Source of the DNA: Sphingomonadaceae bacterium
GTDB lineage: Bacteria; Pseudomonadota; Alphaproteobacteria; Sphingomonadales; Sphingomonadaceae
Assembly (NCBI GenBank): GCA_025362895.1
Contig: JANYFA010000035.1
Coordinates: forward strand, 1 to 54,439
Direction: 5' to 3'
DNA length: 54,439 bases
Position numbers and translations under genes: made by a program. The notes beneath the pieces are model-generated. The model worked only from the letters and a program-made list of their open reading frames with translations. It did no database searches and had not been told where the DNA came from. Positions 17,275-33,056 of this stretch are shown in pieces. The first letter of the stretch is position 1, and every line of letters begins with the position of its first letter.

Positions 17275-20200
17275 CTACCGGCGGGGGCGCTTGCCGAGAA
17301 CGAGCAGAAGCGCGGGCAGCAACATGACAATCAACACCGCACCGACGCCAAGGCCGAAGATGATCGCGGTCGCCAGCGGTTTTTGCAGCCCTGAACCACG
17401 ACCGAGGCCGAGCGCCAACGGCAGCAGCGTCAGGATTGCAATCAGCGCCGACATCAGGATCGGGCGGAGCCGGGCGCGACCAGCGGCAAGCAGCGATGGA
17501 ACCGTAATCGCGGCATCGGCCTCGAACTCGGCGAGGAAGAAGATCGCCAACTCAGTGAGCATCCCGACGACCATTGTCAGCCCCATGAGGGCCGAGATGT
17601 CGAGTTCGATACCGGTCAGCCACAGGCCGCCAAGGACCGCGCACGCCGACAGCAGGACCGTCGCGATGACAGCAAGGGTAAAAACCCAGCGTTCGAAAAG
17701 GAACGTCAGCAACAGCGCCGCGAGCAGCAATGCCGCCGCAAACACCCCGGCGAGGTCGGAGAACGACTTCTGTTGTTGCTCGTACAGGCCGCCATATTCG
17801 ACCCGGACGCCGACAGGGAGGTGGAGCGCCGCCACCTTGGCCTGAACCGCCTTAACCGCGCTGCCGAGGTCGCGGTTTTCGAGCCGCGCCGTGACGGGCA
17901 GGAACGGGGCCAGGTTCTCCCGCGTGATCTGGCGCTGACCGGCGGCGATGCCGATCCGCGCAACCTGCCCCAGCGCGACCGTCCGGCCGTCGGCGGCACG
18001 CAGCGGGAGGGCCGCCAGCACATCGGTCCGCTGCCGCTGATCGCGCGGGAGACGGACACGAACGTCGATCACATCCTCGCCGGCGCGAACCTGCGTGGCG
18101 ATACTGCCCTCGATTTCAGCCGTCACCTGCTTGGCGACCGCATCGGGGTCGAGGCCCGCGAGCGACGCCGCGCCACGATCGACATCGATCGTCACGGCAT
18201 CGCCGGCGACCCGAAGGCCGTTGTTGACCTCGACGACGCCGGGGATCGTGGCGATGCCGCTGGCAACCTGGCGCGCGGCGGCGACCAGTTGCTCGGCGTC
18301 GTCGCCGAATAGCTTCACCTCGATCGGCTGCGGCACCGCCGTCAGGTCGCCGATCAAATCCTCCATCAGTTGCGCGGTCTCGATACGGAGCCCGGGCACC
18401 TGCGCGGCGACCTTGGCGGCAACCTCGCTCATCACCTCTTCGATGTTGCGACGGCTGCCCGTCTTGAGGCGGATGAACATATCACCCTCGTCCGGCTCGG
18501 TCAGGCCACCGCCGAGCTGGACGCCGGTGCGCCGCGAATAACTGCTGACTTCGGGCGTTGCGCGAACGATCGCCTCGACCTGACGCAGCAGGCGATCGGT
18601 GTCGCCCAGCGCCGCGCCGGGCTTCGCCTTGTAGTCGAGGATAAAGCCGCCCTCGTCCATCTTCGGCATGAAGCCCGACTGGACGTGAAACCATGAAAAT
18701 GCGCCGACACCCGCGAGGATCAGGGCGGCGACGCCAACGAACAACCCCGGGCGAGCGAGCAACCGCGCGGTGAGCGATGCGTAACGGCGCGTGATGCCGC
18801 CGGTGAAGCGCTCGGCGCGCTCGGCAGCTTCCGCGTCTTTGATCGTCAGCCAACCGTCGGCAATGAGTGGAAGGACGTAGCGGGCGTAGACTAGGCTGAC
18901 GCCGAGCGCCGCCACCATCGTCACCGCCAACGCCTTGAAGAAGCCGCCCGTGACGCCGCTGATGAAGGCGAGCGGCAAGAATACGACGATCGTCGCCAGG
19001 GTCGAGCCGAACAAGGGCCGCGCCATCTCGCGCGCGGCGGCGAGCATCGACGGGCGCTCGGCGGCGGTCGCTCGTCCCTCCGGGCCGTGCGCTTCCTGCA
19101 GGCGTCGGACAAGATGCTCGAGCATGACAACGGCGTCGTCGACGACGAGCCCGACCGCCGCCGCCATGCCGCCGAGCGTCATCATGTTGAAGCTCATACC
19201 GAACGCGAGCAGCGCAAGGCACGTCGCCGCCAGAACGGCAGGCAGCAGGCTGGCGGTGATGACCATCAATCGCCAGCTGCGGAGAAAGGCGAACAGAACC
19301 AACCCGGCCAGTACCGCGCCGAGGAGGATCGCGTCGCGCACCGACGTCGCTGCATCGCTGACCAGTTCCGATTGGTCGTAGAACGGGCTGACCTTGACGT
19401 CGCTCGGCAGTCCGGCGCCGCGCAACTTCGCCTGGACGGCGGCGACGAGGGCAATCGCGTCGGCGGTCGGCGTCTGGCGGACGTTGATCAGGACGGCGTC
19501 AGTGCCGTTCGCCGTTACTCGGGTATACACCGGGGCCGACGCGCGGCGAACCGTTGCCACCTGTCCAAGGGTGACGACCCCGGCCCCGCCGGTGGTCCCC
19601 GCCTTGATCGGCACGGCGGCGATATCGGCCTCGCTGACAAGGCGGTTCTCGACAAGCGACAGATAGAGGCGGTGGCGGTCCTCGATCCGCCCGACGGCGG
19701 TGACGCTGTTCGAGGCGGCGAGTGCGGCAGCAAGATCGGCGCTGGTCAGGCCGAGCGCGCGGAGCCGGGCCGGATCGGCCTCGACCTCGATCTCGGGGGT
19801 CCCGCCGCCCAGAACGTCGACTCCCGCAACACCGGGCACCGTCGATAACAAAGGCCGCAGCTTGAGCCGGGCAATGCGTTGCAACTCGGTGCCGCTCCGC
19901 TGCGTCGACGTCAGCGACAGGCCATAGACCGGGAAGATCGTCGGGTCTGAGCGGCGGACGCTGAAGCGGGTTCCCGGCGGCAGATCGGGCAGGATCGTCG
20001 CCAGCGCGCCCTGCGTCGCCTGCGTTGCAGCGACCATGTCGTCACCCCAGGCGAAGGTCAGCGAGACCTCGGCGGTACCGCGACTGGTCGTCGACCGGAT
20101 CTGGCTGACCCCGGGAATCTGGCGCAGCGCGATCTCCGCCGGACGTGTGACTGCCGCCGCCATCTGGCCGATGTCGCGGTCACCCGCGTCGATCGCGACG

Positions 20201-20358
20201 ACGACGCGCGGATAATCGATATGCGGGAACAGTGTCACCGGCAACTTCGACGCGGCGATCAACCCCGCCAGCGTGACCAGCGCGACGAGCAGCCAGATCG
20301 ACCGCGCGTGTCGACGCAGCGCGGGTAGGCGACTAGCGGCGTCGGGCACTGGCGTCAC
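17275..20358 (-). CDS. RND efflux pump, inner-membrane permease
   Basis: A 1027-residue proton-driven exporter with the RND layout: one helix, a large periplasmic loop, six helices, a second loop and five helices. The N-terminal SKLPVTLFPHIDYPRV is typical. Helix 4 reads GLVVDDAVVMLEH, with two adjacent acids as in the HAE-type (drug/hydrophobe) group rather than the single Asp pattern of heavy-metal pumps. The GTG start overlaps the adaptor stop in GTGA. With the adaptor and outer-membrane factor upstream it completes a tripartite pump. It is the last gene of a co-directional run that starts with a two-component system, so export of a compound linked with the upstream TonB receptor is conceivable. 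Confidence 0.93.
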   Translation of the reverse strand: MTPVPDAASRLPALRRHARSIWLLVALVTLAGLIAASKLPVTLFPHIDYPRVVVAIDAGDRDIGQMAAAVTRPAEIALRQIPGVSQIRSTTSRGTAEVSLTFAWGDDMVAATQATQGALATILPDLPPGTRFSVRRSDPTIFPVYGLSLTSTQRSGTELQRIARLKLRPLLSTVPGVAGVDVLGGGTPEIEVEADPARLRALGLTSADLAAALAASNSVTAVGRIEDRHRLYLSLVENRLVSEADIAAVPIKAGTTGGAGVVTLGQVATVRRASAPVYTRVTANGTDAVLINVRQTPTADAIALVAAVQAKLRGAGLPSDVKVSPFYDQSELVSDAATSVRDAILLGAVLAGLVLFAFLRSWRLMVITASLLPAVLAATCLALLAFGMSFNMMTLGGMAAAVGLVVDDAVVMLEHLVRRLQEAHGPEGRATAAERPSMLAAAREMARPLFGSTLATIVVFLPLAFISGVTGGFFKALAVTMVAALGVSLVYARYVLPLIADGWLTIKDAEAAERAERFTGGITRRYASLTARLLARPGLFVGVAALILAGVGAFSWFHVQSGFMPKMDEGGFILDYKAKPGAALGDTDRLLRQVEAIVRATPEVSSYSRRTGVQLGGGLTEPDEGDMFIRLKTGSRRNIEEVMSEVAAKVAAQVPGLRIETAQLMEDLIGDLTAVPQPIEVKLFGDDAEQLVAAARQVASGIATIPGVVEVNNGLRVAGDAVTIDVDRGAASLAGLDPDAVAKQVTAEIEGSIATQVRAGEDVIDVRVRLPRDQRQRTDVLAALPLRAADGRTVALGQVARIGIAAGQRQITRENLAPFLPVTARLENRDLGSAVKAVQAKVAALHLPVGVRVEYGGLYEQQQKSFSDLAGVFAAALLLAALLLTFLFERWVFTLAVIATVLLSACAVLGGLWLTGIELDISALMGLTMVVGMLTELAIFFLAEFEADAAITVPSLLAAGRARLRPILMSALIAILTLLPLALGLGRGSGLQKPLATAIIFGLGVGAVLIVMLLPALLLVLGKRPRR

Positions 20359-21389
20359 CTCGCCGCTTCCCGAACCTTCATCCCATCGGTAAGCGCTGTA
20401 CCGCCCGTAACGACGACGTGTTCGCCCGCGGCAAGGCCACTCGTGATGGCGACGCTATCGCCGCTCGAATTTCCCGGAACCACGTCGCGCGATGTGGCGA
20501 CCCCGCCATTGACGACGAACACATAGCTGCGACCACCGTCGTCGAGCAGCGCCGCGTAGGGCACGACGACCCCATTGACCGCGCCACCGCCGACCGCAAC
20601 GTCGGCGCGCAACGCTTCACCCGGCCCGACGCGACTGCCACCGGTCAGGCGGGCGAACACAGACGCCAGCCGCGTTGTCGCGTCGACCTGGGGATCGACA
20701 CCCGCGACCACGGCGGGGATCGTGGCATTGCTGCCCGGCAGCGTCACACGAAGGGGCTGGCCAGCATGTATCTGACTGGCGAGCGCGGGATCGATGCCGA
20801 AACGCGCGCGGGTTTGCCCCTGCGTCGCCAAGGTCGCCACCGCGACGCCGGCCGCAACGATATCGCCGGGTCGCGCAGTCAGCGCCTGCACGGTCCCCGC
20901 AGCAGGCGCGCGCAGCGTTAGCGACGCGGCGCCCTGAGCCGCCGCCGACTGGGTCGCGGCCGCGGCCGATGCCGCCGTGCGCGACGTCTCGACATCGGCA
21001 TCGCTCATCAGGCCGTCGGCGCGCATGCGCTTGGCGCGGGCCAGTGCGAGGTTGGCGGCAGTGGCCTCGGTCGCCGCTTTGGTCGCATCGAGCCGGGTCG
21101 TCGGCGTCGGCGCGAGGATGGCGACCACCTGACCGGCGTGAACCGCGGTGCCGGTCGGCGCGAGGATCTGCGTCAATCGGGCCTCAACCTCGATTGCCAG
21201 CGCGCGTTCGGACCCCGGTCCCGCCTCCGCTCCGCCGTATAATGCCACCATCCGGGCCGCCGCGCCGGTTGTCGCGATCGCCGTCCGCACGTTCGCGACC
21301 GGGTCGGCGGCTTTGTCCTCGGCAGGCGGCGCGGAGCAGGCGGCGAGCAGAACGGCCGTCCCGCCCAACAAAAGCGTCAAGCGGATCAT
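20355..21389 (-). CDS. RND efflux periplasmic adaptor (membrane fusion lipoprotein)
   Basis: A 344-residue adaptor that joins the RND permease to the outer-membrane channel. The start ATG at 21389 forms ATGA with the stop of the preceding gene; the ATG nine bases earlier is less likely. The signal peptide ends in the lipobox LLAACSAPP, so Cys17 is probably lipidated. Then come the barrel-sandwich half (VEARLTQILAPTGTAVHAGQVVAIL), an alpha-helical hairpin rich in Ala, the second half (LRAPAAGTVQALTARPGDIV) and beta-barrel and membrane-proximal domains. It overlaps the RND permease gene by 4 bp. Substrate unknown. Confidence 0.93.
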   Translation of the reverse strand: MIRLTLLLGGTAVLLAACSAPPAEDKAADPVANVRTAIATTGAAARMVALYGGAEAGPGSERALAIEVEARLTQILAPTGTAVHAGQVVAILAPTPTTRLDATKAATEATAANLALARAKRMRADGLMSDADVETSRTAASAAAATQSAAAQGAASLTLRAPAAGTVQALTARPGDIVAAGVAVATLATQGQTRARFGIDPALASQIHAGQPLRVTLPGSNATIPAVVAGVDPQVDATTRLASVFARLTGGSRVGPGEALRADVAVGGGAVNGVVVPYAALLDDGGRSYVFVVNGGVATSRDVVPGNSSGDSVAITSGLAAGEHVVVTGGTALTDGMKVREAAR

Positions 21390-22753
21390 CGGGGCCATCC
21401 TTCGCGTAACGTGCCGGTCAGCAGCTCGAGGGCGATCGTCTGCTCGGCGATCGTCTGGTCGAGCGTAACGAGCGCAAGGTCGCGGTCGCGGACCGCCTGC
21501 GTTGCCGCATCGCCGGTCGACCGGGGCAGGTCACCGCGCGCACTCGCCCGCACCATGGCTTCGGCATAATGGCGCAGGGGCGGCAGCGCGGCGAGGAGCG
21601 CAGCGCGCTGCCGCTGCGATGTCGCGACGTTCATGACGGCGTCGGTGATATCGGCGCGCGTCGCGAACAATCGTGCCTCATATTCGGCCCTGAGCTGGGC
21701 CCGCGTCGCAGTCGCGATGGCGATGCCGCCACGATTGCGGTTCCACAGCGGCAGGGTGAATCCGACCTGCGGTCCCAGCGTTCGGTTATTCGCCGTGTCG
21801 CGGACGCCCGACAGCGCCAGCGACAGCGTCGGAAATTGCTCTAGCACCTGCTTGTTCGTCTCGGCTTCCTGCGCCTGATACCCCGCGCGGAGTGCCGCCA
21901 GATCAAGCCGCCGGTCGAGTGCGAGCGCCACCAGCGCGGCAGCGGGGGGCAACGGCGCGGTGGCGGGCGGTGGCGCCAGCCGCAGGACCGTTGCCGGGGG
22001 CAGACCGAGCTGTTTATTGAGGTCGCCGCGCGCCGCGATGAGGGCAGTTTCGGCCGTTCGTCCTTTATCGGCGGCATCGAGCGCAGCCTGTCGCCGGAGA
22101 TCGAGCTCGGACCCGGCGAGGTCGCCGCGCCCGGCGGCCCGCAGCACGGCGTCGAGCGCCTTCGCCGCCTGCGTTGCACTGGCAGCGGTCAAGTCCGTCG
22201 CCGCGGTCAGCGCCGCGATGCGAACACCGAGGAGGCGCGCCTGCCCCGCCGCCTGCCACTCCGCCCACGCGAGGTCGAGGCGGACCTGATCTTTCGTCGC
22301 CGCCTGCGCCTGCCGCGTTACCCGGCGCAGGCGAAGCTGGTTGAGGTCGAACGCGATCTGGCCGGTAAAGCCGTTGAAGGGATCGGGGCCGCCAATTCGC
22401 TTGTCGAACCCGAACTGGAGCGTCGGATCGGGCAGCAGGCGTGCCGAAAAAGCCTGCGCGTCGGTGACGCCACTTTTGGCCCGCAGCGCCTTGAGCTCCG
22501 GGCTTTCAATGACCGTGATAACGGCGAGCGCGTTGAGTGTGAGCGGCGCGCCAAGATCGATCGGCTGCGCGGTGAGGTACGGCCGGTCGATTTTAGTGGC
22601 TGCTACCGACAGCGCGGTGACGTCGGGGACGGCAAACAGCGTAGCCGGCGCGTGCGGCGGATCGGCGGCATAATGCGCGCACCCGCTCGCCGCCCCGGCC
22701 AACAGCAGGGCGGCGACGCAGGGACGATGACGGGCCGACGGAACGAAAGACAT
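21386..22753 (-). CDS. TolC/OprM-type outer-membrane efflux lipoprotein
   Basis: A 455-residue outer-membrane factor. The signal sequence leads to AASGCAHY, a plausible lipobox with lipidated Cys at about residue 25. Two OEP repeats of alternating Ala-rich coiled coil follow: the first near LNALAVITVIESPELKALRA, the second after VALALDRRLDLAALRAGY, with GPQVGFTLPLWNRNRGGIA marking the conserved beta-strand start of the second repeat. It forms a trimeric channel for the adjacent adaptor and permease. Only 20 bp separate its ATG from the end of the TonB receptor gene upstream, so both are probably on one transcript. Confidence 0.92.
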   Translation of the reverse strand: MSFVPSARHRPCVAALLLAGAASGCAHYAADPPHAPATLFAVPDVTALSVAATKIDRPYLTAQPIDLGAPLTLNALAVITVIESPELKALRAKSGVTDAQAFSARLLPDPTLQFGFDKRIGGPDPFNGFTGQIAFDLNQLRLRRVTRQAQAATKDQVRLDLAWAEWQAAGQARLLGVRIAALTAATDLTAASATQAAKALDAVLRAAGRGDLAGSELDLRRQAALDAADKGRTAETALIAARGDLNKQLGLPPATVLRLAPPPATAPLPPAAALVALALDRRLDLAALRAGYQAQEAETNKQVLEQFPTLSLALSGVRDTANNRTLGPQVGFTLPLWNRNRGGIAIATATRAQLRAEYEARLFATRADITDAVMNVATSQRQRAALLAALPPLRHYAEAMVRASARGDLPRSTGDAATQAVRDRDLALVTLDQTIAEQTIALELLTGTLREGWPR

Positions 22754-22773
22754 TGTACCGACGGCCTCGACTC

Positions 22774-25700
22774 TCAGAACTTCACCGATGCCTGCACATA
22801 GACCAAGCGCCCGAGCGGCGAATAGGTCGAAACGTCGGCAGTATTGTCGGTGTAGGCCGCGCTAGGCGTGAACACGTTGGTCGACACCGGCGGCATCCGG
22901 TCGAACAGGTCGTTCGCGCCGACCGCGAGGCTGAAGCCATTCGGATGCCCGTCGCGATCACGGACCTGATACGCGACGCGGAGATCGAACGTCGTGTACG
23001 GCTTGATCCGCCCAGCGAAGGCGGTCGCCGGGGTCTTCGCCGAATTAGTCTCGTAGGTGATGCCGCCCGCACCAAGGTCACGGACCGCCGAAACATAGGT
23101 ATTGCCGAGAATGACATCGAAGTTGCCCATCGACCAGTCGAGCGTCGTGTATGAGCGGAACTTCGGCAACACGCCTTGAACCCCGGTGCCGCCGTTGGTC
23201 GCGGTGCCGGCATATTCGTAGAACTTCTGCGACGGAATCGCCTGAAACCTGTAACTGATGAAATACGCCATCGCTGAGGTCACCGCGAAACTGCCCCAGC
23301 CGTGGGTCGGGACCGAATAATCGATCGTCGCGTTGACCGTCTTGACCCTGATCCCTCCGAGATTGGTGAACCGGTCGATCGCATAGACATTGTTATAGTT
23401 TGCCGGGTCGGCGGCGAGATAGGCGCGCAAATCGCCGGGGTTGGCGAACGGCGTCGCTCCCGGCGATCCCGGGAAGTTGCCCTTGGCGATGTTGCCCGCG
23501 AAGATCGACGCCGCCCCATTTTGGTTGACATCGAGGAAGATGTTGCTGAAGCCGATGCCACCGGGAAAGCCCGCCTCCTTGATGAAGCTGTAGTCCGCCT
23601 CAATCCGCAAACGCGGGATGAAGGCGGGCTTAAACACGCCGCCGATCGAATAGCTTTGCGCCTTGGCCGGTTTAAGCCCCGGATTGACGCCGTCCTGGAC
23701 GGGCGTCAGGCCTGCGGCCAGACCTGGGAAGGCGGCGGGGACGATACCCGGCCCTGCAAGGCGGTTATTGATCGGGCCATACTCCTGATAGAGCGGCGGT
23801 GCGGTGAACGAGCGCGAATAGGTCCCGCGCAGCGTGAACGCCTTGTCGATCGGCTGCCAGAAAAAGCCGATCTTCGGCACGGTCGAATTGCCCGCGTCGC
23901 TATAATGTTCGTGACGGATCGCGCCGATCAGGTCGAATTCGTGGAAGCCGGGAATATCGAAACCGTCGCCGGTGATCGGGACCCGCGCTTCGCCATAGAC
24001 CGAAGTGATGCGGCGTCCGCCGGGCGTCGCCGAGCCGGCGGCGGCGGTCGAACACGCGACGGGGAACGGATCGGCCGACTGACCACCGATCCACGTCGAC
24101 GGGTTCGAGACGAATGCGCCGCCGCTGTTGCAGTAATTGGGGTCGGCGTGGACGAAGCCATTGGTATCGGTGTGGCCGGTCAGTGATTCCTTGCGCGTCC
24201 CCGCTCCGATGGCGACGCTCAGTCTGCCTGCGGGCAAGGTGATCAGACTGCCGGTGACCTTGCCATCGAACGAATCGAGCTGACTGGTGGCGTGGAGATT
24301 TTCGGTGCCGAATAAATAGCCGAGCGTCGTTGCGTTCGGCGTCCGCGACAGAGGGTCGAGCGCGGGCACGAGGACCAACGGGCTGGCGAGCGAAAAGGCC
24401 GAATAAACCTGGCTGAATGCGCCTCCCGGCGTCGCGACCCCGGCAGCGTTGAACCCACCGGCGATCGAGCGCGCGACGTTCGGCTGATAGATCACGTTCT
24501 TCTGCGACTGATCGAGGACGTTGACGCTGTGGACGTAAGCGGCTTCGTAATTCCACGACGGCCCGAGGAATTCGAGCTTGCCCTTCAGCCCGGCAGTGAT
24601 GCGGAAACTGTCGTTGCGGTTATAATATTGCTTCAGGTTGGCGGGGCTGCCGAAGGTAACGCCGCCGAGTGTGCCAGTGATGGGGTTGAACGGTGATCCC
24701 TGTGGCAGGCTGACGCCCGTCGCCACCGGCCGGAACTGCGTGAAGCTCTTGTTCTCGGCAACCTGAGCGTCGGCGAAGAACACGACCGCGTCGCCGATAA
24801 TGTCGGCCGTGACGCTGCCGGCAAGTGCCTTTTGCTTTTGCTGAAGCAGGATGGTCTGGAAACGCGACAGGTCATAAGTGCCGCCGACCCCGGTTCCTGC
24901 AACCCCGTTATTGCTCTGCGCCGTCGGGGGCACGGTCTGCGGGGCAACCGTCGTCGGCGTGTTGATATACGTGCCGTTGGCAACTAGCGCGGCGAAGTTC
25001 GGCGCGGTCGCGGCGAGCCCGGTCGGGTTGCTCGACGATGCGCTCGTCAGCCCGGGTGCGAGCACGCCGAACAGACCGCCCGTCACCACCGCACCGGGGA
25101 CGGCTGTCGATGTGCTGTAGAACGGCGAGGTGAACGCGCGCTGGTTCTGATACAACGGGTCGGAGTTGACGAGACTACCCGACAACGTGACGTTCAGCCC
25201 CTTGGCGAGGTTGTGGCCGAGAGTGAACGACAGGCTGTTCTCGCGGTAGCCGCCCTTGGCAAAGCCGTAGCGACCGTCGATCTGCGCGCCTTCATAGTCG
25301 TGCTTGAGGATGAAGTTGATGACGCCGCCGACCGCATCCGAGCCGTAGATCGCCGACGCGCCATCGGTCAGCACCTCCACCCGCTCTATCGCGCCGGCGG
25401 GAATCTGCGACAGATCGACGAAGACTTTGCCGCCAAGTCCCGCGATCGCGTTGACCGCCGCACGGCGGCCGTTGATCAGGACAAGCGTATCGAGGTTGCG
25501 GAGCTGCGCCTGGCTGCCACCGGCGGTGTTCTGGTTGGTGTTGTTGGCATTGCTGTTGCCCGTGTTGCTCCGTCCGGCGAACGACGGGATCTGCTTGCGA
25601 ACGAGTTCGAGGACATTGTTGTTGACCCCTCCCTTCTCGATCGCATCGGCGCCGATGATGCTGACCGGAACCGCGACCTGATCGGGCGAAGTCGGCAAAG

Positions 25701-25863
25701 ACGATCCAGTAATGACGATCTCCGCCGCTTCGTCGGCGTCGGCGGCTGCCGCCGTGCGGGCCGGGGCTAGCTGAGAAAATGCCGGGGCCGCACTGGTGAG
25801 CGCCACCGCCGCGCTCGAGAGCATGAGCATCGTGCGGATTGTCGAGTTTACGGTGATCATCAT
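22774..25863 (-). CDS. TonB-dependent receptor within the kinase-pump cluster
   Basis: A 1029-residue outer-membrane receptor. A signal peptide ending APAFSQ is followed by a low-complexity linker, a TonB-box-like region EIVITGSS and a plug with LDTLVLINGRRAA and VEVLTDGASAIYGSDAVGGVINF, typical of the long sphingomonad and xanthomonad receptors. An Asn/Thr-rich segment (residues 90-115) lies before the plug core. The barrel ends in VQASVKF. GGGGAGAGAA stands before the double ATG start. It lies 51 bp downstream of a YncE-like propeller gene and 20 bp upstream of a TolC-type gene. TonB receptor plus YncE is a known pairing (yncD/yncE of E. coli). Ligand unknown. Confidence 0.93.
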   Translation of the reverse strand: MMITVNSTIRTMLMLSSAAVALTSAAPAFSQLAPARTAAAADADEAAEIVITGSSLPTSPDQVAVPVSIIGADAIEKGGVNNNVLELVRKQIPSFAGRSNTGNSNANNTNQNTAGGSQAQLRNLDTLVLINGRRAAVNAIAGLGGKVFVDLSQIPAGAIERVEVLTDGASAIYGSDAVGGVINFILKHDYEGAQIDGRYGFAKGGYRENSLSFTLGHNLAKGLNVTLSGSLVNSDPLYQNQRAFTSPFYSTSTAVPGAVVTGGLFGVLAPGLTSASSSNPTGLAATAPNFAALVANGTYINTPTTVAPQTVPPTAQSNNGVAGTGVGGTYDLSRFQTILLQQKQKALAGSVTADIIGDAVVFFADAQVAENKSFTQFRPVATGVSLPQGSPFNPITGTLGGVTFGSPANLKQYYNRNDSFRITAGLKGKLEFLGPSWNYEAAYVHSVNVLDQSQKNVIYQPNVARSIAGGFNAAGVATPGGAFSQVYSAFSLASPLVLVPALDPLSRTPNATTLGYLFGTENLHATSQLDSFDGKVTGSLITLPAGRLSVAIGAGTRKESLTGHTDTNGFVHADPNYCNSGGAFVSNPSTWIGGQSADPFPVACSTAAAGSATPGGRRITSVYGEARVPITGDGFDIPGFHEFDLIGAIRHEHYSDAGNSTVPKIGFFWQPIDKAFTLRGTYSRSFTAPPLYQEYGPINNRLAGPGIVPAAFPGLAAGLTPVQDGVNPGLKPAKAQSYSIGGVFKPAFIPRLRIEADYSFIKEAGFPGGIGFSNIFLDVNQNGAASIFAGNIAKGNFPGSPGATPFANPGDLRAYLAADPANYNNVYAIDRFTNLGGIRVKTVNATIDYSVPTHGWGSFAVTSAMAYFISYRFQAIPSQKFYEYAGTATNGGTGVQGVLPKFRSYTTLDWSMGNFDVILGNTYVSAVRDLGAGGITYETNSAKTPATAFAGRIKPYTTFDLRVAYQVRDRDGHPNGFSLAVGANDLFDRMPPVSTNVFTPSAAYTDNTADVSTYSPLGRLVYVQASVKF

Positions 25864-25875
25864 TTCTCTCCCCTG

Positions 25876-25905
25876 ATGCCGGCGAGTTTATGCCCCGTCC
25901 GGCAT
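25876..25905 (-). repeat. Inverted repeat between YncE-like and TonB receptor genes
   Basis: ATGCCGG and CCGGCAT are 7-bp perfect arms around a 16-nt loop, placed inside the 51-bp gap of a probable operon and just upstream of the receptor ribosome site. It may set the relative amount of receptor mRNA by attenuation or processing. Confidence 0.4.
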
Positions 25906-25914
25906 GATTTGGTG

Positions 25915-26916
25915 TCAACGTGGCGTCACATCGTACCTTAGCACTTTGGCCATCGCCTTCGTTTCGCCTGGCGATGCAGCGACCCACAGGTGGTGGCGAG
26001 CGGGATCGAGGATCGCCGTCTTCGCCCCGACCAGGCTCGCTACCCGAGCGGCTTCGTGATATTTATCGGCGCTGTCCTGCTCGACGACGCCGATGTATCC
26101 CTCGCCGCCGGTCGCGTAGATGCGACGGTTCGCGGCGTCCCATATAACCTGATCGGTCCGTGCCGGCGCATCGAACATCGCGACCGTCGCGCCGGTATCG
26201 GCATTGATCACGACCAGTTTGCCCGGCTTGCGGCTGACGATGAACAGCCGGTGCGTCTTTGGATCATACGCGGCGCAGGCGTTCTGCTCGGCGGCGATGA
26301 ATGGCCATGTCTTGGCGACCTTGCCCGTCTTCGTGTCGACGACAGCAATCTTGTTTTTGTCGGTGATGTTGATCCACAACATCGAACCGATCGCCATCGC
26401 CTCGACATGGTCGGCGTCGAAATGGACCGACTTGAGCACCTTGCCGGTTGCGGGATAGATCTCGATCAGATTGCTGTCGGGTTGGGGCACGTCTTTGCCG
26501 CCGGTCACGACCCATAGATGGCCCGTGGCGGCGTCATAGCCCGTCGAATCCGCGCCCTTGGCGAGCTTGTAGCTGCGCTTGGTCTTGAGCGTCGCGGCAT
26601 CGAGCACTGGCGACGGCTTGTCGCCGTCGATCACCAGGAGTTCGTTGGCGCCCGCCATGTAGTGGAGTGAGTGCGGTACGCCGAACCCCTTGAGGCGCGT
26701 TTTGATTTTGCCGGTAACGAGGTCGAGCGCTTCGAGTTCGGCACTTTCCTCGCCGGCGAGGAACAGCGTCTTATCCTTCTCGTCGATCGCAAAATGGTCG
26801 AAGTCGCCGGTGTAGCCCGGCAGATTGGTGCTGCCCGTCAGCGTCAACGGGGCCGCAGCCGCGGATGTAGTTAGCGCCAGCACGGCGACCCCGGTCAACA
26901 GCAGGCGCACGATCAT
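25915..26916 (-). CDS. YncE-like secreted beta-propeller protein (first copy)
   Basis: A 333-residue periplasmic protein predicted as a seven-bladed YVTN/YncE-type propeller. The signal peptide MIVRLLLTGVAVLALTTSAAAAP is followed by repeats of about 40 residues with patterns such as DKTLFLAGEESAELEALDLVTGK, AATGHLWVVTGG, THRLFIVSRKPGKLVVINADTG and NRRIYATGGEGYIGVVEQD. The start at 26916 is chosen because GGAG lies six bases upstream; for the in-frame ATG at 26922 it would touch the codon. Such propellers bind ligands or proteins and are not usually enzymes. It sits between the two-part secreted protein and the TonB receptor. A second YncE-like gene lies at 30115, beyond the two-component genes. 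Confidence 0.85.
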   Translation of the reverse strand: MIVRLLLTGVAVLALTTSAAAAPLTLTGSTNLPGYTGDFDHFAIDEKDKTLFLAGEESAELEALDLVTGKIKTRLKGFGVPHSLHYMAGANELLVIDGDKPSPVLDAATLKTKRSYKLAKGADSTGYDAATGHLWVVTGGKDVPQPDSNLIEIYPATGKVLKSVHFDADHVEAMAIGSMLWINITDKNKIAVVDTKTGKVAKTWPFIAAEQNACAAYDPKTHRLFIVSRKPGKLVVINADTGATVAMFDAPARTDQVIWDAANRRIYATGGEGYIGVVEQDSADKYHEAARVASLVGAKTAILDPARHHLWVAASPGETKAMAKVLRYDVTPR

Positions 26917-26932
26917 CGTCATCTCCGGAAAT

Positions 26933-27775
26933 TTATTTCGCACGGGCGAACAGGGCGGCGTTGTCAGGAATGGCGCTCGCGAGCTCGTCGCGGATGGCCA
27001 GGCCACGGCGGTGGATTGCTTCCTTGTCGTCGCTCGCCTTGAACGGGAAAACGAGGCCAAGCGCCCCAATCCGAACGCCATGAGCGTCGAGGAGTGGTAG
27101 TTCGGTCTCGAAGCGGTCGTTGTCGCCAAGCTCGAGGTTGGTCGACCCCTTGTCGATAACGCGGAGGTCGTCTTCGTCCGCCGCCTTGCCGAACCGCCCG
27201 ATGTTGGAGCCGATGACGACATTGCGCTTGGCCCCGGGCGGGGTCGCATGGACCATCATGACAAGCAGGTCAGGGTGCCGGGCGACGGTCTTCATCGTGA
27301 GCGTCTGCGCGTAGGTGTCAGGGCCAAAGCCTTTGTCGAACGGCCAGGCGTCGGCAGCATTCTTTGCGCTCAGCGTCGCCTTCGCGAGGTCGGACTGGAC
27401 AGCGGCCGCCGTCGCGGCGTTGGGGGCACCCGCGGTTTTGAATTTGATCTCGATGGTCCCAAGGCGGTGCCCGGAACTACTATTGAACGCCTCGCGTACC
27501 GTCGAGCCGACGACACCATCGGGTGCGGGATGCGTGACCGCTGTCATCACGCTGGCGATGCGCGCGGTCGACCCGAGCACAATCAGGCCGTCGCCCTTCT
27601 CGCGCTTGCTTTCAACGGTGATTGCCGCAATCGCGGGATATTTAGCCTTGGTCGCGACGATCAGGTGCTGAACATAGGTATGCCCACCGACCACCGGCGG
27701 TGTCTCATCGTCGGCCAGCGCGGCGCCAGGTACGAAGGCCGCAACGACCGCTGCGATCGCCCGAAGATAACGCAT
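26933..27775 (-). CDS. Secreted protein with two similar Cache/PAS-like halves, function unknown
   Basis: A 280-residue protein with signal peptide (cleavage near GAALADDE) and strong GGGAGG six bases before the ATG. I do not recognise a named family. The mature part looks duplicated: an N-terminal half with YPAIAAITVES, GLIVLGSTAR and LGTIEIKFK, and a C-terminal half with HPDLLVMMVHA, NVVIGSNIGR and IGALGLVFPFK, in the same order and spacing. The motif GKAADEDDLRVID lies in the second half. Order and lengths recall the PAS-like folds of periplasmic sensor (Cache) domains, so ligand binding is possible. It lies directly downstream of the sensor kinase and 16 bp before a YncE-like gene, and may be an accessory sensor for that kinase. 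Confidence 0.7.
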   Translation of the reverse strand: MRYLRAIAAVVAAFVPGAALADDETPPVVGGHTYVQHLIVATKAKYPAIAAITVESKREKGDGLIVLGSTARIASVMTAVTHPAPDGVVGSTVREAFNSSSGHRLGTIEIKFKTAGAPNAATAAAVQSDLAKATLSAKNAADAWPFDKGFGPDTYAQTLTMKTVARHPDLLVMMVHATPPGAKRNVVIGSNIGRFGKAADEDDLRVIDKGSTNLELGDNDRFETELPLLDAHGVRIGALGLVFPFKASDDKEAIHRRGLAIRDELASAIPDNAALFARAK

Positions 27776-27895
27776 CGAAAACCTCCCGGTGCCGCATTGG
27801 CGGCTTATGTCTGTTCAGTGGCGGCACTAGCTGACACCTGCCTTGCGCGAAGTTAAATTGCTTTTCAGGTAGGCCGATACGGTCGCTCGCGCGAC

Positions 27896-29278
27896 TTAAG
27901 CCTCGAGATCGCTGGCGGTGACTAGGGCTGCGACGCGCGGCAGTTCGACGATGATCGCCAGGCCGCGCAGCCGTCGCGCGGGTTCCGCCCAAATCCGACC
28001 GCCGTGAAGTCGGACGATGCTGCGCGAGATGGTCAGGCCAAGGCCCGTCCCGCGCGGCGTATCGACCCCGCCGAGGCGGACGAAGCGTTCGAACATACGG
28101 TCGAGTTCCGCTACCGCCACGCCAGCGCCGTCATCCTCGATCCTGACTTGCCATACCGACCCCGCGAAGTGCGCGGTTAGACAGACCCGGCCGCCGCGCG
28201 GCGTGGCCTTAAACGCATTGGTCACGACGTTGAGCAGGACCTGGCGCAGCCAGCCGAATTCCATACCCACCGACCCCGCGTCGCTCGCCACAAAAGTGAA
28301 TACATGCCCCGAATCGTCGGCCAGAACGCCGGCGTCATGCGCGAAACTTTCGAGGAACCCGCTGGGATCGACGGGCTTCAAATCAAATACAATCGCGTCG
28401 GCATCGGCCCGCGACAGAAACAGCATCTGGTCAATAAAGCGGTTGAGCCGGGCGATCTCGTCGACCTGCTCGATTGCCGCGTCGGCGTGCGGTCCGCCGC
28501 CATCACGCAATATCTCCTCCGCGTGCAGCCGGATGAGGGAGAGCGGCGTCTTCAACTCGTGACTAACCTCCTCGCTGAAACGGCGCATCTGGACGAACGC
28601 GCTTTCGAGCCGGTCAAACGTGCGGTTCAACAATTCGGCAAGGTCACTCACTTCGTCGCGGACATCGCCGACCGGAATCCGTTCGCTCAGATTGTCGGAG
28701 CCAATTCGGTCGGCGGTGTCGCGAATTGCCCGCATCGGGCGCAACACGAGGCGGCTGAGGCCGAGACCGATTGCGATGCTCGCCAGCAGCATGGAGGCGA
28801 TAAGGGCGGCGCTGGTCTCGCCATAGGCGCGGATCGAACTGTCAACCGCGCGCGCCGACGTCGCCACCGTTACATCATAGGGCGGCAGCAGGAATTCGTT
28901 GACCCGCAACGACCCTAGGTCGGGGGTGAAAGCGTCGAACTTACGCTGGCCCTTGACGTCGGGGATGCGCTGGCCGTGGAGGTTCGACGAGTTGAACAGA
29001 TATTCGTCGGTCTTCGGATAGTGAATGCTGATCAGGAACAGCACCGACTCGTACTGATTGACTCCGGACAAGCGCCGCTCCAGCGAACCGCGCGACAGCG
29101 TCGCATAATCGTCACCGATATGTGCCTTCAATTGCCGGAACTCGGCTGCGTTGAGCTCATCGAGACCATGCGTCAGCTGGGTATCGAGCAGGACGCCACC
29201 AATCAGGCTGAGGATCGCGAAGGTGATGGTCGCCGCGAAAGCGTACCAGAATGTCAGGCGCGCGCCGATGCTTCTCAC
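27896..29278 (-). CDS. Sensor histidine kinase (OmpR-partner, CusS-like)
   Basis: A 460-residue membrane kinase. Helix 1 is at about residues 8-30, a periplasmic domain of roughly 130 residues follows, and helix 2 lies near 165-185. Next is a HAMP segment (LRPMRAIRDTADRIG), the dimerisation box FSEEVSHELKTPLSLIR with the phospho-accepting His, and an ATPase domain with N box VLNVVTNAFKATPRGG, DDGAGV and RGTGLGLTISRSI. The GTG start overlaps the regulator stop in GTGA, so the pair is cotranscribed. The architecture matches heavy-metal type (CusS) kinases, but the periplasmic domain is not informative enough to name the signal. Confidence 0.93.
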   Translation of the reverse strand: MRSIGARLTFWYAFAATITFAILSLIGGVLLDTQLTHGLDELNAAEFRQLKAHIGDDYATLSRGSLERRLSGVNQYESVLFLISIHYPKTDEYLFNSSNLHGQRIPDVKGQRKFDAFTPDLGSLRVNEFLLPPYDVTVATSARAVDSSIRAYGETSAALIASMLLASIAIGLGLSRLVLRPMRAIRDTADRIGSDNLSERIPVGDVRDEVSDLAELLNRTFDRLESAFVQMRRFSEEVSHELKTPLSLIRLHAEEILRDGGGPHADAAIEQVDEIARLNRFIDQMLFLSRADADAIVFDLKPVDPSGFLESFAHDAGVLADDSGHVFTFVASDAGSVGMEFGWLRQVLLNVVTNAFKATPRGGRVCLTAHFAGSVWQVRIEDDGAGVAVAELDRMFERFVRLGGVDTPRGTGLGLTISRSIVRLHGGRIWAEPARRLRGLAIIVELPRVAALVTASDLEA

Positions 29279-29946
29279 AGCAACTGGTAACCGATCCCGC
29301 GGACCGTCTTGAACACGGGCACCGACGTGAGCACGGCGATCTTGGCGCGAAGGCGGCTCATGTAGACGTCGAGGAGGTTGGTATCGACGTCGAAGTGTGA
29401 ATCCCAGATCTTCTCCGCGATCAGCGAGCGCGTCAGCACCCGCCCGGCGTTCTGGACGAAAATCGTCATCAGAGCATATTCACGCGCCGTCAGATCGAGT
29501 TGCTTGCCGTCGACGCGAACGACATGGGCGAGCAGATCGAGGGTGATGCCATTATGTTCGTAGACGGTCTGTTTGCGCGCCGCCTGTCGCCGCAGCAGGG
29601 CGCGCATCCGTGCCAGCAGCTCGTCCATCCCGAACGGCTTGGGCAGATAATCGTCTGCCCCGAGATCGAGCCCCGCGACGCGGTCCTGACGACTGTCGCG
29701 CGCGCTCAGGATCAGAACCGGCTCGATGAACCCCGCCGCGCGCCAGTCGCGGATGAGGTCGAGGCCATCGCCGTCGGGCAGGCCAAGGTCGAGGATGACG
29801 AGGTCATACGCCGTTTCGGCGATCGCGTCGGACGCAGCAGCACAGTTGGTCACCCAGCGAACGATATGCGCGTGCTGCGCCAATCCCTGCTGAAGGAAGC
29901 GGCCCAACTTCTCCTCGTCTTCGACCACCAATAGTTTCAATGTCAT
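29275..29946 (-). CDS. OmpR/PhoB-family response regulator (CusR-like)
   Basis: A 223-residue regulator. The receiver shows LLVVEDEEKL, the phospho-acceptor Asp in VILDLGLPDGDG, the Thr/Ser position in LILSARD and Lys in YLPKPF. The winged helix contains LTAREYALM, then IAEKIWDSHFDVDTNLLDVYMSRLRAKI and VFKTVRGIGYQL, closest to the metal-type CusR/CopR group. Such regulators bind direct repeats with about 11-bp period; exactly such repeats lie at 30028-30054 in the divergent promoter and at 33902-33928. It probably activates both directions as well as its own operon. Confidence 0.94.
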   Translation of the reverse strand: MTLKLLVVEDEEKLGRFLQQGLAQHAHIVRWVTNCAAASDAIAETAYDLVILDLGLPDGDGLDLIRDWRAAGFIEPVLILSARDSRQDRVAGLDLGADDYLPKPFGMDELLARMRALLRRQAARKQTVYEHNGITLDLLAHVVRVDGKQLDLTAREYALMTIFVQNAGRVLTRSLIAEKIWDSHFDVDTNLLDVYMSRLRAKIAVLTSVPVFKTVRGIGYQLL

Positions 29947-29979
29947 TCCCGCAGTCGTTTCGCCGACGCCGCCATGATC

Positions 29980-30012
29980 CGCCTGTCGATCGACCCCGTC
30001 AATCGACAGGCG
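29980..30012. promoter_or_regulatory. 11-bp inverted repeat in the divergent regulatory region
   Basis: CGCCTGTCGAT and ATCGACAGGCG are perfect 11-bp arms around an 11-nt centre, 34 bp before the response-regulator start codon. In RNA of the minus strand it would be a strong 5' leader hairpin; in DNA it could be a dimeric operator. It is distinct from the GTCAG direct repeats nearby. Confidence 0.55.
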
Positions 30013-30027
30013 ATGCCTGAAAATCCT

Positions 30028-30054
30028 GTCAGAAAGCCGTTAGGCTGACTTCAG
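30028..30054. promoter_or_regulatory. Three direct half-sites with 11-bp period (probable regulator box)
   Basis: GTCAG at 30028, GTTAG at 30039 and TTCAG at 30050 follow one another with exact 11-bp steps in the promoter region between the response regulator (minus) and the second YncE-like gene (plus). One helical turn per step on a single DNA face is how OmpR-family dimers bind. GTCAGAAAGC is shared with the site at 33902-33928. Confidence 0.6.
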
Positions 30055-30114
30055 GATCGGCGTCGATACGCCCGATCAAGCGGCGTTGACCGCGCGGATA
30101 CAGGGGAGAAGCGT

Positions 30115-31149
30115 GTGCGTCGGTTGCTCAGCATCATCATTGCGGTCGGCGTCGGCGCGGCGGCCAGCCCGGTCTATCGCCTCCAGTCCGAACAACCCCT
30201 CAAGGGCCGGTCGCCGGGTTGGGATTATGTAGCCTTCGAGGCCGGGCGCAATCGACTGTTCCTTGGGCGCCGCACTGCCGGTGTGACGGTAGTCGATGCC
30301 GCCACGGGAAGTGTTTCCGCCACAATTGCCGACAGCATCGGCGCCAACGTCGCGTTGCCGGTCCCGACGCTGGGACGTGGCTATACCGCCAACGGCGACG
30401 GATCGACGACGATCTTCGCCCTCGACACGCTGAAATCCATTTCGCGGGTGAAGGTCGGCGAGGCGGTCGATGCGGTGTTCTTCGACGCCGTCACGGGACT
30501 GCTTGTCTTCACCGATGGCGACCACAAGCGCCTGATCCTGTTCGACCCTAAAACCAACGCGGTTGCGGGGTCCATTGCCGTACCCGCCGAAGAGCTCGAA
30601 GGCGCAGTCGCGACCGGTGACGGGGGGCTGTGGGTCAACGAACGCGACCGCGACCGGATCGCGCACGTCGACCTTAAGACGCGGACCCTCGTCGCCGACT
30701 ATCCTCTGCCCGGTTGCAGTCAGCCAACGGGGCTTGCCTTCGATGGGGCGTCCAAGCGGCTGTTCGTCGGCTGCAAGGGCACCGCGCCAGTCCTTGCCGT
30801 CGTCAATGCCAAATCCGGCTACGTCGTCGCCCGCGTCGGAATCGGGCGCGGCAATGACGGCGTCGTCTGGGATGCCGGTCGCAAGCGTATTTTCACCGCA
30901 AACGGGATCGACGGCAACATTGTCATGATCGACCAGAGCGGCCCCGACAATTACCGCTTCGCCGGTGCTTTCACAACTCGCCCGATCGCACGAACGCTTG
31001 TTGAGGACCCCGCCACGGGACGCATTTTCACGATGACCGCGAGCGGAATCGTCGACCCCAGCCGCCCCCGTAACCTGAAGGCGGGGGCGTTTTATCCTAA
31101 CCGCTACCTCGACGATTCGTTCGTGTTACTAACCTACGCGCCGCAATAA
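30115..31149 (+). CDS. YncE-like secreted beta-propeller protein (second copy)
   Basis: A 344-residue protein with a short N-terminal hydrophobic segment (LLSIIIAVGVGAAASP) and then propeller-type repeats: NRLFLGRRTAGVTVVDAATG, GLLVFTDGDHKRLILFDPKTN, KRLFVGCKGTAPVLAVVNAKSG and KRIFTANGIDGNIVMIDQ. The start is GTG at 30115 with GGGGAG six bases upstream. It is transcribed away from the two-component genes and is followed 15 bp later by a citrate/malate-type transporter, so the two form an operon behind the GTCAG repeats. It is related in plan to the protein at 25915 but clearly diverged. Probable periplasmic location; ligand unknown. Confidence 0.82.
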   Translation: MRRLLSIIIAVGVGAAASPVYRLQSEQPLKGRSPGWDYVAFEAGRNRLFLGRRTAGVTVVDAATGSVSATIADSIGANVALPVPTLGRGYTANGDGSTTIFALDTLKSISRVKVGEAVDAVFFDAVTGLLVFTDGDHKRLILFDPKTNAVAGSIAVPAEELEGAVATGDGGLWVNERDRDRIAHVDLKTRTLVADYPLPGCSQPTGLAFDGASKRLFVGCKGTAPVLAVVNAKSGYVVARVGIGRGNDGVVWDAGRKRIFTANGIDGNIVMIDQSGPDNYRFAGAFTTRPIARTLVEDPATGRIFTMTASGIVDPSRPRNLKAGAFYPNRYLDDSFVLLTYAPQ

Positions 31150-31164: not shown

Positions 31165-32478
31165 GTGACAATTCAGGATGCCACACTCGACGCCGTGCCG
31201 CCGCGCCGCCAGCTCATCGACTGGTCGATCGGCATCGTGCCTATCGCCGTGGCGCTCGTCATCATCGCCATCATCGCCGCCTATGTCGCGCAGGGAAAGG
31301 TGCCCGCCGACCTGACGACGGCGATCCCGGTCCTCGCCCTTGGCGGGTTCGCCTGTGCGGAGATCGGCAAACGCCTTCCCGGCCTGCGCCGGATCGGGGC
31401 GGCAGCGATCTTCGCGACCTTCATCCCGTCGTACCTTGTCTACATACACGCTATCCCCAAGCCGCTTGAAACGGCGATCAAGACGTTCACCGATCAGAGC
31501 AATTTCCTATACCTGTTCATCGCCGCAATCATCGTCGGGTCGATTCTTGGCATGGACCGACGCGTTCTTATCGGCGGCTTCGTCAAGATCTTCGTACCGA
31601 TTTTTACCGGGTCGATCGTTGCCGTCGTCGTTGGCTGCGCGACGGGTATGGCGCTGGGCTTCGATCTGCCGACCGTCGCGTTCAAGATTGTCGTTCCTGT
31701 CCTTGGTGGCGGCGTCGGCGAAGGGGCGATCCCGCTGTCGATCGGCTATGCCGCACTCCATGGCGGCGATCAGGGCGCTCTCTTGGCCGAGATTCTTCCC
31801 GCCGTGATGTTTGGTAGTCTGACCGCCATCCTGCTCGCGGGCGGCCTTAGCCTGCTCGGAAGGTGGCGCCCGTCGCTGACGGGAAATGGGGCGCTCCAGC
31901 CGGGTGAGATCGATGAGCCACTCGACCATGGACAGCTGCGCCTCATTCCCGACCTGTCGACGATCGGTGCCGCCTTGGTGCTGGCGATGACGCTGTTCAT
32001 GGCGGGCGCGCTGCTCCAGAAGCTGACCAACTTTCCGGCACCCGTGACGATGCTGTTTCTGACCGTCGCGCTCAAACTGTCGCGCTTCGTGTCACCGCGT
32101 CTCGAGCAGGGAGCCTTCCGCAACTATCAGTTCGCCGCGACGCTACTAACCTATCCGTTGCTGTTCGCGATCGGCGTGTCGAAGACGCCGTGGGACAAAT
32201 TGATGAGTGCCTTCAACGCGCCCGAGCTCATCACCATCGTCGTTACCGTCGTCGCGCTGACTGCAACCGGCTTCTTTGTCGGTCGGCTGGTCAACATCTA
32301 CCCCGTCGAGGCGGGGATCATCGCGGCGTGTCGGGCGAGCCAGGGCGGAACCGGCGACGTCGCCATCCTGTCGGCGTGCGACCGGATGCAGATGATGCCG
32401 TTCGCGCAGGTCGCGACACGGATCGGCGGGGCGCTGACGGTGACGATCGCCCTCGCCGCCTACGCCCGATACGGCTAG
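31165..32478 (+). CDS. 2-hydroxycarboxylate transporter (CitS/MaeN type)
   Basis: A 437-residue inner-membrane carrier of the 2HCT family, which imports citrate, malate or lactate with Na+ or H+. The two re-entrant loop signatures are clear: GGGVGEGAIPLSIGY near residue 180 and SQGGTGDVAILSACDRMQMMPFAQVATRIGG near the C-terminus; the Arg of the latter binds the carboxylate in CitS. The number of hydrophobic segments (about 11) fits. The start is GTG with a G run upstream. It is in an operon with the second YncE-like propeller and probably controlled by the divergent two-component system. Which carboxylate is carried cannot be seen. Confidence 0.92.
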   Translation: MTIQDATLDAVPPRRQLIDWSIGIVPIAVALVIIAIIAAYVAQGKVPADLTTAIPVLALGGFACAEIGKRLPGLRRIGAAAIFATFIPSYLVYIHAIPKPLETAIKTFTDQSNFLYLFIAAIIVGSILGMDRRVLIGGFVKIFVPIFTGSIVAVVVGCATGMALGFDLPTVAFKIVVPVLGGGVGEGAIPLSIGYAALHGGDQGALLAEILPAVMFGSLTAILLAGGLSLLGRWRPSLTGNGALQPGEIDEPLDHGQLRLIPDLSTIGAALVLAMTLFMAGALLQKLTNFPAPVTMLFLTVALKLSRFVSPRLEQGAFRNYQFAATLLTYPLLFAIGVSKTPWDKLMSAFNAPELITIVVTVVALTATGFFVGRLVNIYPVEAGIIAACRASQGGTGDVAILSACDRMQMMPFAQVATRIGGALTVTIALAAYARYG

Positions 32479-32510: not shown

Positions 32511-33056
32511 CTACTGACCGCGCGGCAGCATCCGCTTGAGCACTCCGTCGCGCAGGAAATAATGGTGGATCAGCGCGGCGCTCGCATGGAGTCCGGCGAG
32601 GATCAGGATCAGCGTCGCGCCGAGCCCGTGCCACGTCGTTACTCGGTTCGACAAAAGGTGCCGCGCGTCTTTGTCCCAAGTCCCCCATTTGGGCAGGTGG
32701 CCAAAGCCGAACATGTCGTCACCGCGCAGCATCTCGTTGAAGACACCGAGCCCGACGACGACGATGAGCACCGCGTACAGCGTCAGGTGCATCGCCTGCG
32801 ACACCAAAGCGTCGAGCGTCTTCGCCTGCGCTAGCCGCCTTCCACCACTCGCCCGCCACACCACGCGCCACGCGAGGGCGAGGGCGAGCAGCGAACCGAG
32901 GACGACATGGACGGCGCGGGCATCGACGCGCGGCGGCCCCTTGGCGAACCAGTCGATGGTATGCCCGCTCGCCCATTGCGCGACGACGAGCAGCGCGACG
33001 GTCCAGTGGAGGGCGATCGTCCGCGCATCATAGCGCGTCGCGGCGAGGCTCGTCAT
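32511..33056 (-). CDS. Cytochrome b561-type membrane protein
   Basis: A 181-residue four-helix protein of the bacterial cytochrome b561 (CybB-like) family. Haem-ligating His candidates are in TIALHWTVALLV (helix 1), ARAVHVVLGS (helix 2), TWHGLGATLIL and LHASAALIHHYF (last helices); GLGVFNEML follows helix 3. The ATG at 33056 overlaps the ThuA-like stop in ATGA, hence one operon; the longer start is less likely. These proteins pass electrons from quinol or ascorbate-like donors across the membrane, and some reduce ferric compounds or superoxide. The linked GTCAG box suggests control by the two-component system. Confidence 0.9.
   Translation of the reverse strand: MTSLAATRYDARTIALHWTVALLVVAQWASGHTIDWFAKGPPRVDARAVHVVLGSLLALALAWRVVWRASGGRRLAQAKTLDALVSQAMHLTLYAVLIVVVGLGVFNEMLRGDDMFGFGHLPKWGTWDKDARHLLSNRVTTWHGLGATLILILAGLHASAALIHHYFLRDGVLKRMLPRGQ

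Follow-up and report, generated by a model that had tools for sequence, protein, structure and literature searches.

A Polymorphobacter gene cassette encoding a secreted tandem domain of predicted sensor fold, and its possible link to citrate-type carboxylates

A co-directional run of eight genes has been analyzed in a 54,439-nucleotide stretch of DNA from a Sphingomonadaceae bacterium (GenBank assembly GCA_025362895.1, contig JANYFA010000035.1, positions 1 to 54,439), referred to here as the window; the genome (G000) comprises 2.08 Mb in 160 contigs and is 76.6% complete. The run occupies the minus strand from 29946 down to 17275 and encodes, in order, a response regulator, a histidine kinase, a secreted two-half protein, a YncE-like beta-propeller, a TonB-dependent receptor, and the outer-membrane factor, periplasmic adaptor and permease of a resistance-nodulation-division (RND) tripartite pump (Table 1). 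This order and all seven gaps, described in a first-pass annotation, were recovered when the open reading frames (ORFs) were re-read from the sequence. Pfam or NCBIfam assigns a general family to seven of the eight products, to the propeller remotely; the eighth, the two-half protein, has no match in either collection at E<=0.01. It consists of a signal peptide, recognized by eye, followed by two copies of a ~130-residue secreted domain that is named SD in this report. As described below, SD is a rare domain with a predicted GAF/Cache-type sensor fold, and the cassette that carries it may serve to sense and take up a citrate-type polycarboxylate.

Table 1. Features of the cassette and its surroundings in the window. 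Scores are in bits.
Feature	Coordinates	Strand	Remarks
OmpR-type response regulator	29275..29946	-	Response_reg + Trans_reg_C; best NCBIfam match TIGR01387, 216.2, below cut-off 279.2
Histidine kinase (HAMP, HisKA, HATPase)	27896..29278	-	GTG start; overlap of 4 bp with regulator; TIGR01386, 188.6, below cut-off 292.55
Two-half secreted protein	26933..27775	-	gap of 120 bp after kinase; SD domains at about residues 30-145 and 147-280
YncE-like beta-propeller	25915..26916	-	gap 16; ATG behind GGAG, by eye; start taken as 26916, longer mechanical ORF start 27249 not accepted; remote YNCE match; secreted, judged from N-terminus by eye
TonB-dependent receptor	22774..25863	-	gap 51; Plug 56.5, cut-off 23.9
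Outer-membrane factor	21386..22753	-	gap 20; OEP 56.7, cut-off 22; lipobox-like N-terminus by eye
RND periplasmic adaptor	20355..21389	-	ATGA overlap of 4 bp; mechanical start 21398; TIGR01730 148.2, cut-off 94.9
RND permease	17275..20358	-	GTG start; overlap 4; ACR_tran 674, cut-off 28
Second YncE-like propeller	30115..31149	+	divergent from regulator; 79-80% identical in L035, L045, L046
2-Hydroxycarboxylate (2HCT, citrate-type) transporter	31165..32478	+	PF03390 446.5, cut-off 26.2
Divergent intergenic region with predicted regulator operator	29947..30114		sites 30027-30044 and 30038-30055, 11 bp apart
Weaker operator-like site upstream of two-half gene	27852..27869		rank 12 of 54,422; 12/300 permuted matrices as good
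Cytochrome b561, neighbour kept in congeners	32511..33074	-	PF01292 79.3; 63-66% identical in congeners
Protein without Pfam match at E<=0.01, ThuA-like by eye	33053..33919	-	79-82% identical in congeners
Second TonB receptor, neighbour	34019..36898	-	Plug and barrel domains

The structure of the two-half protein was modelled with AlphaFold2 (pLDDT 85.5 for the whole protein, 94.6 for domain 2). A first fold search paired its best E-values with poor superpositions; domain 2 alone gave a cleaner result, with the GAF domain 4g3w as best structural match (Z 13.3, rmsd 2.1, 115 of 134 residues aligned). The modelled domain has a GAF-type fold, which describes its fold and not its function, and SD is accordingly classed here as a predicted sensor fold of the GAF/Cache type. 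WalK residues 68-175, which we take to be its extracellular sensor part, are among the VIA-align matches (Z 8.6-8.7); CitA and DcuS are not among the 50 matches listed, and absence from these rows is no exclusion. When an SD profile was compared with 177,635 PDB sequences, the six best matches were DcuS and CitA (E 0.06-0.28), in the C-terminal half of the domain. In addition, sCache_3_2 matched 9 of 28 two-domain SD members at E<=1 (best 7.2e-5). By sequence, SD thus appears weakly nearest to the CitA/DcuS sensors. The ligands of these sensors are carboxylates, and the similarity points weakly to a carboxylate ligand for SD too.

SD is a rare and patchily spread protein family. It was found in 3 of 296 Sphingomonadales genomes, with the window protein as query, and in 1 of 398 Pseudomonadota genomes, the window's own genome included in each count. 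One peptide-pattern scan of species genomes (84,980 species), combined with an SD profile built from seven copies, yielded 73 SD loci, to which four plasmid records were added; 73 is a lower bound because this single scan used one pattern. The record titles span Alpha-, Beta- and Gammaproteobacteria, one deltaproteobacterium, Verrucomicrobia and Eremiobacterota.

Genes were called with a positional-GC caller at 79 loci, the 73 from the scan together with the window, L035 and L045-L048. Since the caller missed SD genes in eight of these loci, the window's included (7 of 74 contigs once five same-contig pairs had been merged), the neighbourhoods were recounted by six-frame seed matches in the DNA examined around SD. 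By this count SD is present in 73 of the 74 contigs; L121 gave no SD at E<=1e-4 in six frames. The counts are not independent, since four of the 73 contigs are from Polymorphobacter. A propeller is present in 57 of the 73, a kinase seed match in 48, and a kinase of the window type (over 300 bits) in 37; the window kinase is 50-54% identical to those beside SD genes in L049, L052 and L073. Among 111 SD ORFs from the gene caller (i.e., without the missed genes), 8 are fused to a propeller and 39 lie directly upstream of one. Fusion to a TonB receptor was seen for 16 SD frames, spread over 15 contigs; two of these frames lie on plasmid records, where the annotation reads TonB-dependent receptor. 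At L047 13542-16457 and L048 2123-5041 the TonB receptor carries a pair of SD domains N-terminally, and in L047 these precede the plug. In L063, seven consecutive PstS-like genes are followed by two SD genes and a propeller, and several more PstS-like genes occur in L105, L106 and L112. The suggestion of the first-pass annotation that the two-half protein is a periplasmic sensor partner is reasonable, because the protein has a signal peptide and a tandem domain of predicted sensor-type fold, and recurs beside a similar kinase.

The neighbourhoods also contain four families known, also from their model names, as carboxylate carriers: 2HCT in 14 of the 73 SD contigs, TctC in 4, DctA in 2 and CitMHS in 2. 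A carboxylate ligand is favoured because four different families of this kind recur near SD; any one of them is found in 18 of the 73 contigs (14 of 69 excluding Polymorphobacter). Both CitMHS genes exceed the family cut-off (551 and 370.4 vs 259.7 bits), as does one DctA (629.4 vs 513). The divergent 2HCT gene of the window, left unused in the first-pass annotation, adds to the neighbourhood support for an organic acid; its product falls short of the CitS citrate:cation symporter models (TIGR00783, 412.1 vs 549.05 bits; NF047943, 210.1 vs 600). 2HCT is rare: a search of 246 Sphingomonadales genomes found it in 1, that of the window, and a search of 398 Pseudomonadota genomes in 21 (20 besides the window's own). 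It is nevertheless present at SD loci whose titles name Sphingomonas, Novosphingobium or Sphingomonadales. It can also occur without SD: genome G339 has 2HCT, the pump and a propeller fragment, with no SD in the 12 kb read. One ORF at L085 (7592-9076) contains a TctC-like domain (39 vs 27 bits) and a weak LuxR-type DNA-binding match (20.6, below the cut-off of 23.5), and L091 and L100 contain ORFs that resemble it by seed match.

An enzyme resembling ATP-citrate lyase is encoded by two genes near SD in Polymorphobacter (L045 1659-5650) and Paraburkholderia (L047 18960-22617); it has a citrate-binding domain (54 vs 26.8 bits), and its second subunit is about 900 residues long. Such genes occur in 5 of the 73 SD contigs, and 22 of the 73 have either one of the four transporters or this enzyme. 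They were rejected as part of the window's own system, as they were not found in the 76.6% complete genome G000.

Where present, the cassette is conserved within Polymorphobacter. Three further records, L045 (NZ_CP081849.1), L046 (NZ_CP080242.1) and L035 (genome G327), contain all eight genes in identical order, with 73-94% protein identity over the aligned parts. The order is therefore more than chance and not unique to this strain. All three records also keep the divergent propeller and 2HCT transporter on the other side of the regulator. In NZ_CP081849.1 (Polymorphobacter megasporae, length 906,785) and NZ_CP080242.1 the cassette is on 0.84-0.91 Mb plasmids of lichen isolates. The propeller is present in three of five sampled genomes of the genus (G000, G327, G366) and was not found at E<=1e-15 in G408 and G436, which are 88% and 95% complete and fragmented into 330 and 430 contigs. 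In Polymorphobacter sp. PAMC 29334 (L046 15862-20771) a transposase gene interrupts the cassette TonB receptor gene; the other cassette genes are annotated whole.

The eight genes had been proposed to form a single transcript, and the relatives lend this no support. L035, L045 and L046 each have an oppositely oriented single-SD gene between the kinase gene and the two-half gene, divergent from the latter. Because this gene separates them, transcription in these three records probably proceeds in two units, one with the kinase and one running from SD to the pump. Among the four records the run is unbroken in the window only, where the single-SD gene is missing and 120 bp are left.

The divergent region next to the regulator gene contains a predicted operator. 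In other taxa the divergent regulator/SD regions carry a TTTCAGG-type repeat with an 11-bp period, and a matrix was made from eight sites at such loci, chosen by eye, two of them identical; the shared 7-mers mix TTTCAGG with G+C-rich words. This matrix ranks the window's region between regulator and second propeller 1 of 54,422 positions (11.6 bits), a rank that 0 of 300 column-permuted matrices equal. In L035 the regulator region has rank 1 (5 of 300 permuted matrices as good) and in L045 rank 5 (4 of 300); the best site of L045 precedes its second TonB gene (10 of 300). L049 and L050, which are outside the matrix, rank 1 at their regulator/SD regions, where 29 and 17 of 300 permuted matrices, respectively, do no worse. 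These scores are suggestive of an operator at the divergent promoter; the candidate site of the SD operon is weak.

The cassette propeller is a remote relative of YncE: it matches the solved YncE structure 3vgz at E 3.7e-8 over 87 residues and does not reach membership of the YncE family (PF21783, 23.1 vs 27.1 bits; NF052280, 32 vs 400). Propellers also occur elsewhere. Another contig of the window's genome (C65; L044 822-6049) has a further one beside TonB-like and phosphoesterase-like ORFs, both recognized by eye, and no SD was found there. Genome G426 has four consecutive propeller genes at one place and two to three at another (L037 and L038), near regulator/kinase matches; no SD was found at either, and the TonB-like ORFs there, seen by eye, do not match the window seeds.

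The account that we favour, tentatively and with considerable doubt, is that the cassette is an envelope system that senses and takes up a citrate-type polycarboxylate, either free or in the form of a metal chelate. The mechanism that we infer, from the ligand and the contact between SD and kinase to the role of the propeller, the cargo of the pump and the regulation, would run as follows: i) the ligand would cross the outer membrane via the TonB receptor; ii) the tandem SD protein would bind it in the periplasm, with or next to the YncE-like propeller; iii) the loaded SD protein would signal to the histidine kinase, as in Bordetella pertussis BctC, a free periplasmic citrate-binding protein, serves transport and signals to the kinase BctE (PMC5812351); iv) the response regulator would turn on the divergent propeller and 2HCT symporter, and perhaps also the SD-propeller-TonB-pump operon; v) the 2HCT symporter would bring the acid into the cytoplasm; and vi) the RND pump would export excess acid or an unwanted companion.

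A number of observations speak against this account. In the DNA examined, 55 of the 73 SD contigs have none of the four carboxylate-transporter families, PstS-like seed matches occur in 47 and NMT1-type matches in 22, and the pump is found at 10, being mostly located elsewhere. An ATP-citrate-lyase-like gene was present in one of five genomes searched (G366; not in G000, G327, G339 or G380). The sequence match of SD to CitA/DcuS is not significant alone, and in a Foldseek search with domain 2 CitA stands at rank 25, below GAF domains. The window's two-half protein has no sCache match; among 66 single-domain SD rows, sCache_3_2 and sCache_3_3 match one each at E<=0.01. An arginine of CitA/DcuS has a binding role, and by eye it has no counterpart in the same column of the SD alignment. 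Finally, the operator upstream of SD is unsupported in congeners, where 94 (L045) and 93 (L035) of 300 permuted matrices score as well, and L088, L090 and L101 have no high-scoring site.

A bolder proposal concerns SD itself. It may represent a family not described before, of periplasmic sensor-fold domains that occur free or fused and act as the hub of a new type of cell-surface signalling. Such signalling would link a transporter in the outer membrane directly to a histidine kinase, with neither STN domain nor sigma factor. We regard this as possible and rather unlikely. The proposal draws on the forms in which SD is found: on its own, joined to YncE-like propellers, or joined to TonB receptors at their N-terminal side. 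A two-component system is often nearby.

The place of the pump has to be considered separately. Its permease, adaptor and outer-membrane factor all score above the Pfam or NCBIfam cut-offs for a general RND tripartite pump. The permease is 89-90% identical in congeners and 73-75% in the Sphingomonas-titled loci L088, L090 and L091. Pump orthologues (>=61% identity) were found in 14 of 199 genomes of the same family; three of the 14, counting that of the window, belong to this genus. In the 11 outside the genus (61-75% identity; 5.8-19.5 kb read around each), one orthologue, in G310 on a contig as long as that of L119, is beside an SD gene. The sensing/uptake cassette and a general efflux pump could thus be two independent modules adjoining by happenstance. 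Regulator and kinase genes beside the pump in G380, G039 and G110 fit such an arrangement, as does the lack of a pump of this type, in the DNA examined, from 33 of the 37 SD contigs with a window-type kinase; a propeller is near the orthologue in G380 and G376. However, the pump is also near SD in L088, L090, L091, L092, L111 and L119, together with 2HCT in L090 and L091; outer-membrane factor and adaptor follow SD in L101 and L073 up to the end of the DNA examined; 2HCT lies directly before the outer-membrane factor, adaptor and RND genes of G339, another of the 11 genomes, with no SD in the 12 kb read; and in the window itself the pump genes overlap by 4 bp and lie 20 bp from the TonB gene. 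Happenstance is on balance an unlikely explanation. RND matches occur in 14 of the 73 SD contigs at any score and in 10 over 900 bits. The pump was rejected as a core part of the cassette, given its absence from the 33 contigs and the single SD neighbour among 11 outside orthologues. With one such neighbour among the 11, and yet a place near SD in several loci, the pump is therefore an optional, mainly alphaproteobacterial partner. The first-pass annotation had import and export of one ligand class managed together; joint handling is possible, whereas the pump as an obligate part is unsupported. In the original idea the connection to the pump is the weakest element, and SD the most interesting one.

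Homeostasis of a metal or metal chelate, in which a Cus-like two-component system senses the metal, the chelate enters through the TonB receptor and the metal leaves through the RND pump, is likewise improbable as an alternative to carboxylate uptake. Heavy-metal models are the best NCBIfam matches of kinase and regulator, the permease scores 445.6 bits against the CusA/CzcA model (TIGR00914), and genes resembling PepSY-ferredoxin reductases and cytochrome b561 are near SD in 13 and 7 of the 73 contigs. All three proteins, however, stay below their family cut-offs (701.45 bits for the permease; Table 1 for the others), so the description of regulator and kinase as CusR/CusS-type is not supported and the permease does not reach the heavy-metal family. 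Furthermore, this explanation leaves the carboxylate transporters unaccounted for, except in the case that a citrate-type chelate carries the metal. The reductase-like and cytochrome genes make a metal chelate a possible ligand.

The ligand could also be other than citrate, such as an aromatic or fungal/lichen acid, another organic acid, or a phosphate ester. We consider this quite unlikely. An MFS transporter of the aromatic-acid type is found in 6 of the 73 SD contigs (one was scanned: TIGR00895, 168.3 bits, below the cut-off of 418.55), PstS-like matches are found in 47, lichen isolates carry the cassette, and elsewhere in the window there is an ORF whose motif we take to be that of a Rieske oxygenase. 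The regulators PobR and PcaR are among the SD fold matches, but they share a GAF-type fold only, and the carboxylate-carrier families 2HCT, CitMHS, DctA and TctC recur near SD. Of the three ligand classes put forward at first pass, an organic acid has the most neighbourhood support, a metal complex little and a redox cofactor none. Uptake of pyrroloquinoline quinone (PQQ) or another redox cofactor, as by PqqU (YncD) with YncE, is very improbable: a YncE-like propeller does stand beside the TonB receptor, but it lies below both YncE cut-offs, and at E<=1e-3 the receptor matches 17 PDB sequences, with no chain named PqqU or YncD among them, though the structure has been solved (6V81; PMC12124388) and distant homology or a missing chain could account for this.

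The favoured reading, citrate-type carboxylate sensing and uptake, would bear on the use of organic acids and metal chelates by soil, plant-associated and lichen bacteria. With SD, YncE-type propellers gain a partner that recurs beside them and a class of ligand that can be tested. If the proposal for SD is true, TonB receptors in which tandem sensor-type domains replace the usual signalling domain would be a new route for reporting outer-membrane cargo to a two-component system.

A literature search of incomplete coverage found no described system with this gene set, in agreement with the first-pass annotation. The BctDE-BctCBA system resembles the cassette in combining a two-component system with a free periplasmic binding protein that serves transport and signalling, for citrate; it differs in that BctC is a binding protein of the tripartite tricarboxylate transporter (TTT) type and not of the GAF/Cache type, and the available part of that source describes no TonB receptor, propeller or RND pump (PMC5812351). 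The likeness to CitA/DcuS is the weak profile similarity of SD; there the Cache domain is inside the kinase, whereas SD is a secreted domain that stands free, occurs in tandem or forms part of a fusion with a propeller or TonB receptor. YncD (PqqU) and YncE are paired in Escherichia coli, and the cassette likewise joins a TonB receptor to a YncE-like propeller; its propeller is remote, its receptor is unmatched, and it adds a sensor protein, a two-component system, a symporter and a pump. In CusRS-CusCFBA a two-component system is near an RND tripartite pump, as in the cassette, but the window proteins are below the family cut-offs and the TonB receptor, propeller, SD and 2HCT have no Cus counterpart. 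In FecA-type surface signalling, a TonB receptor with an N-terminal periplasmic STN domain acts with a sigma/anti-sigma pair. The SD-TonB fusions also place a domain N-terminal on the receptor; in them SD takes the position of STN, and a two-component system is nearby instead of the sigma/anti-sigma pair.

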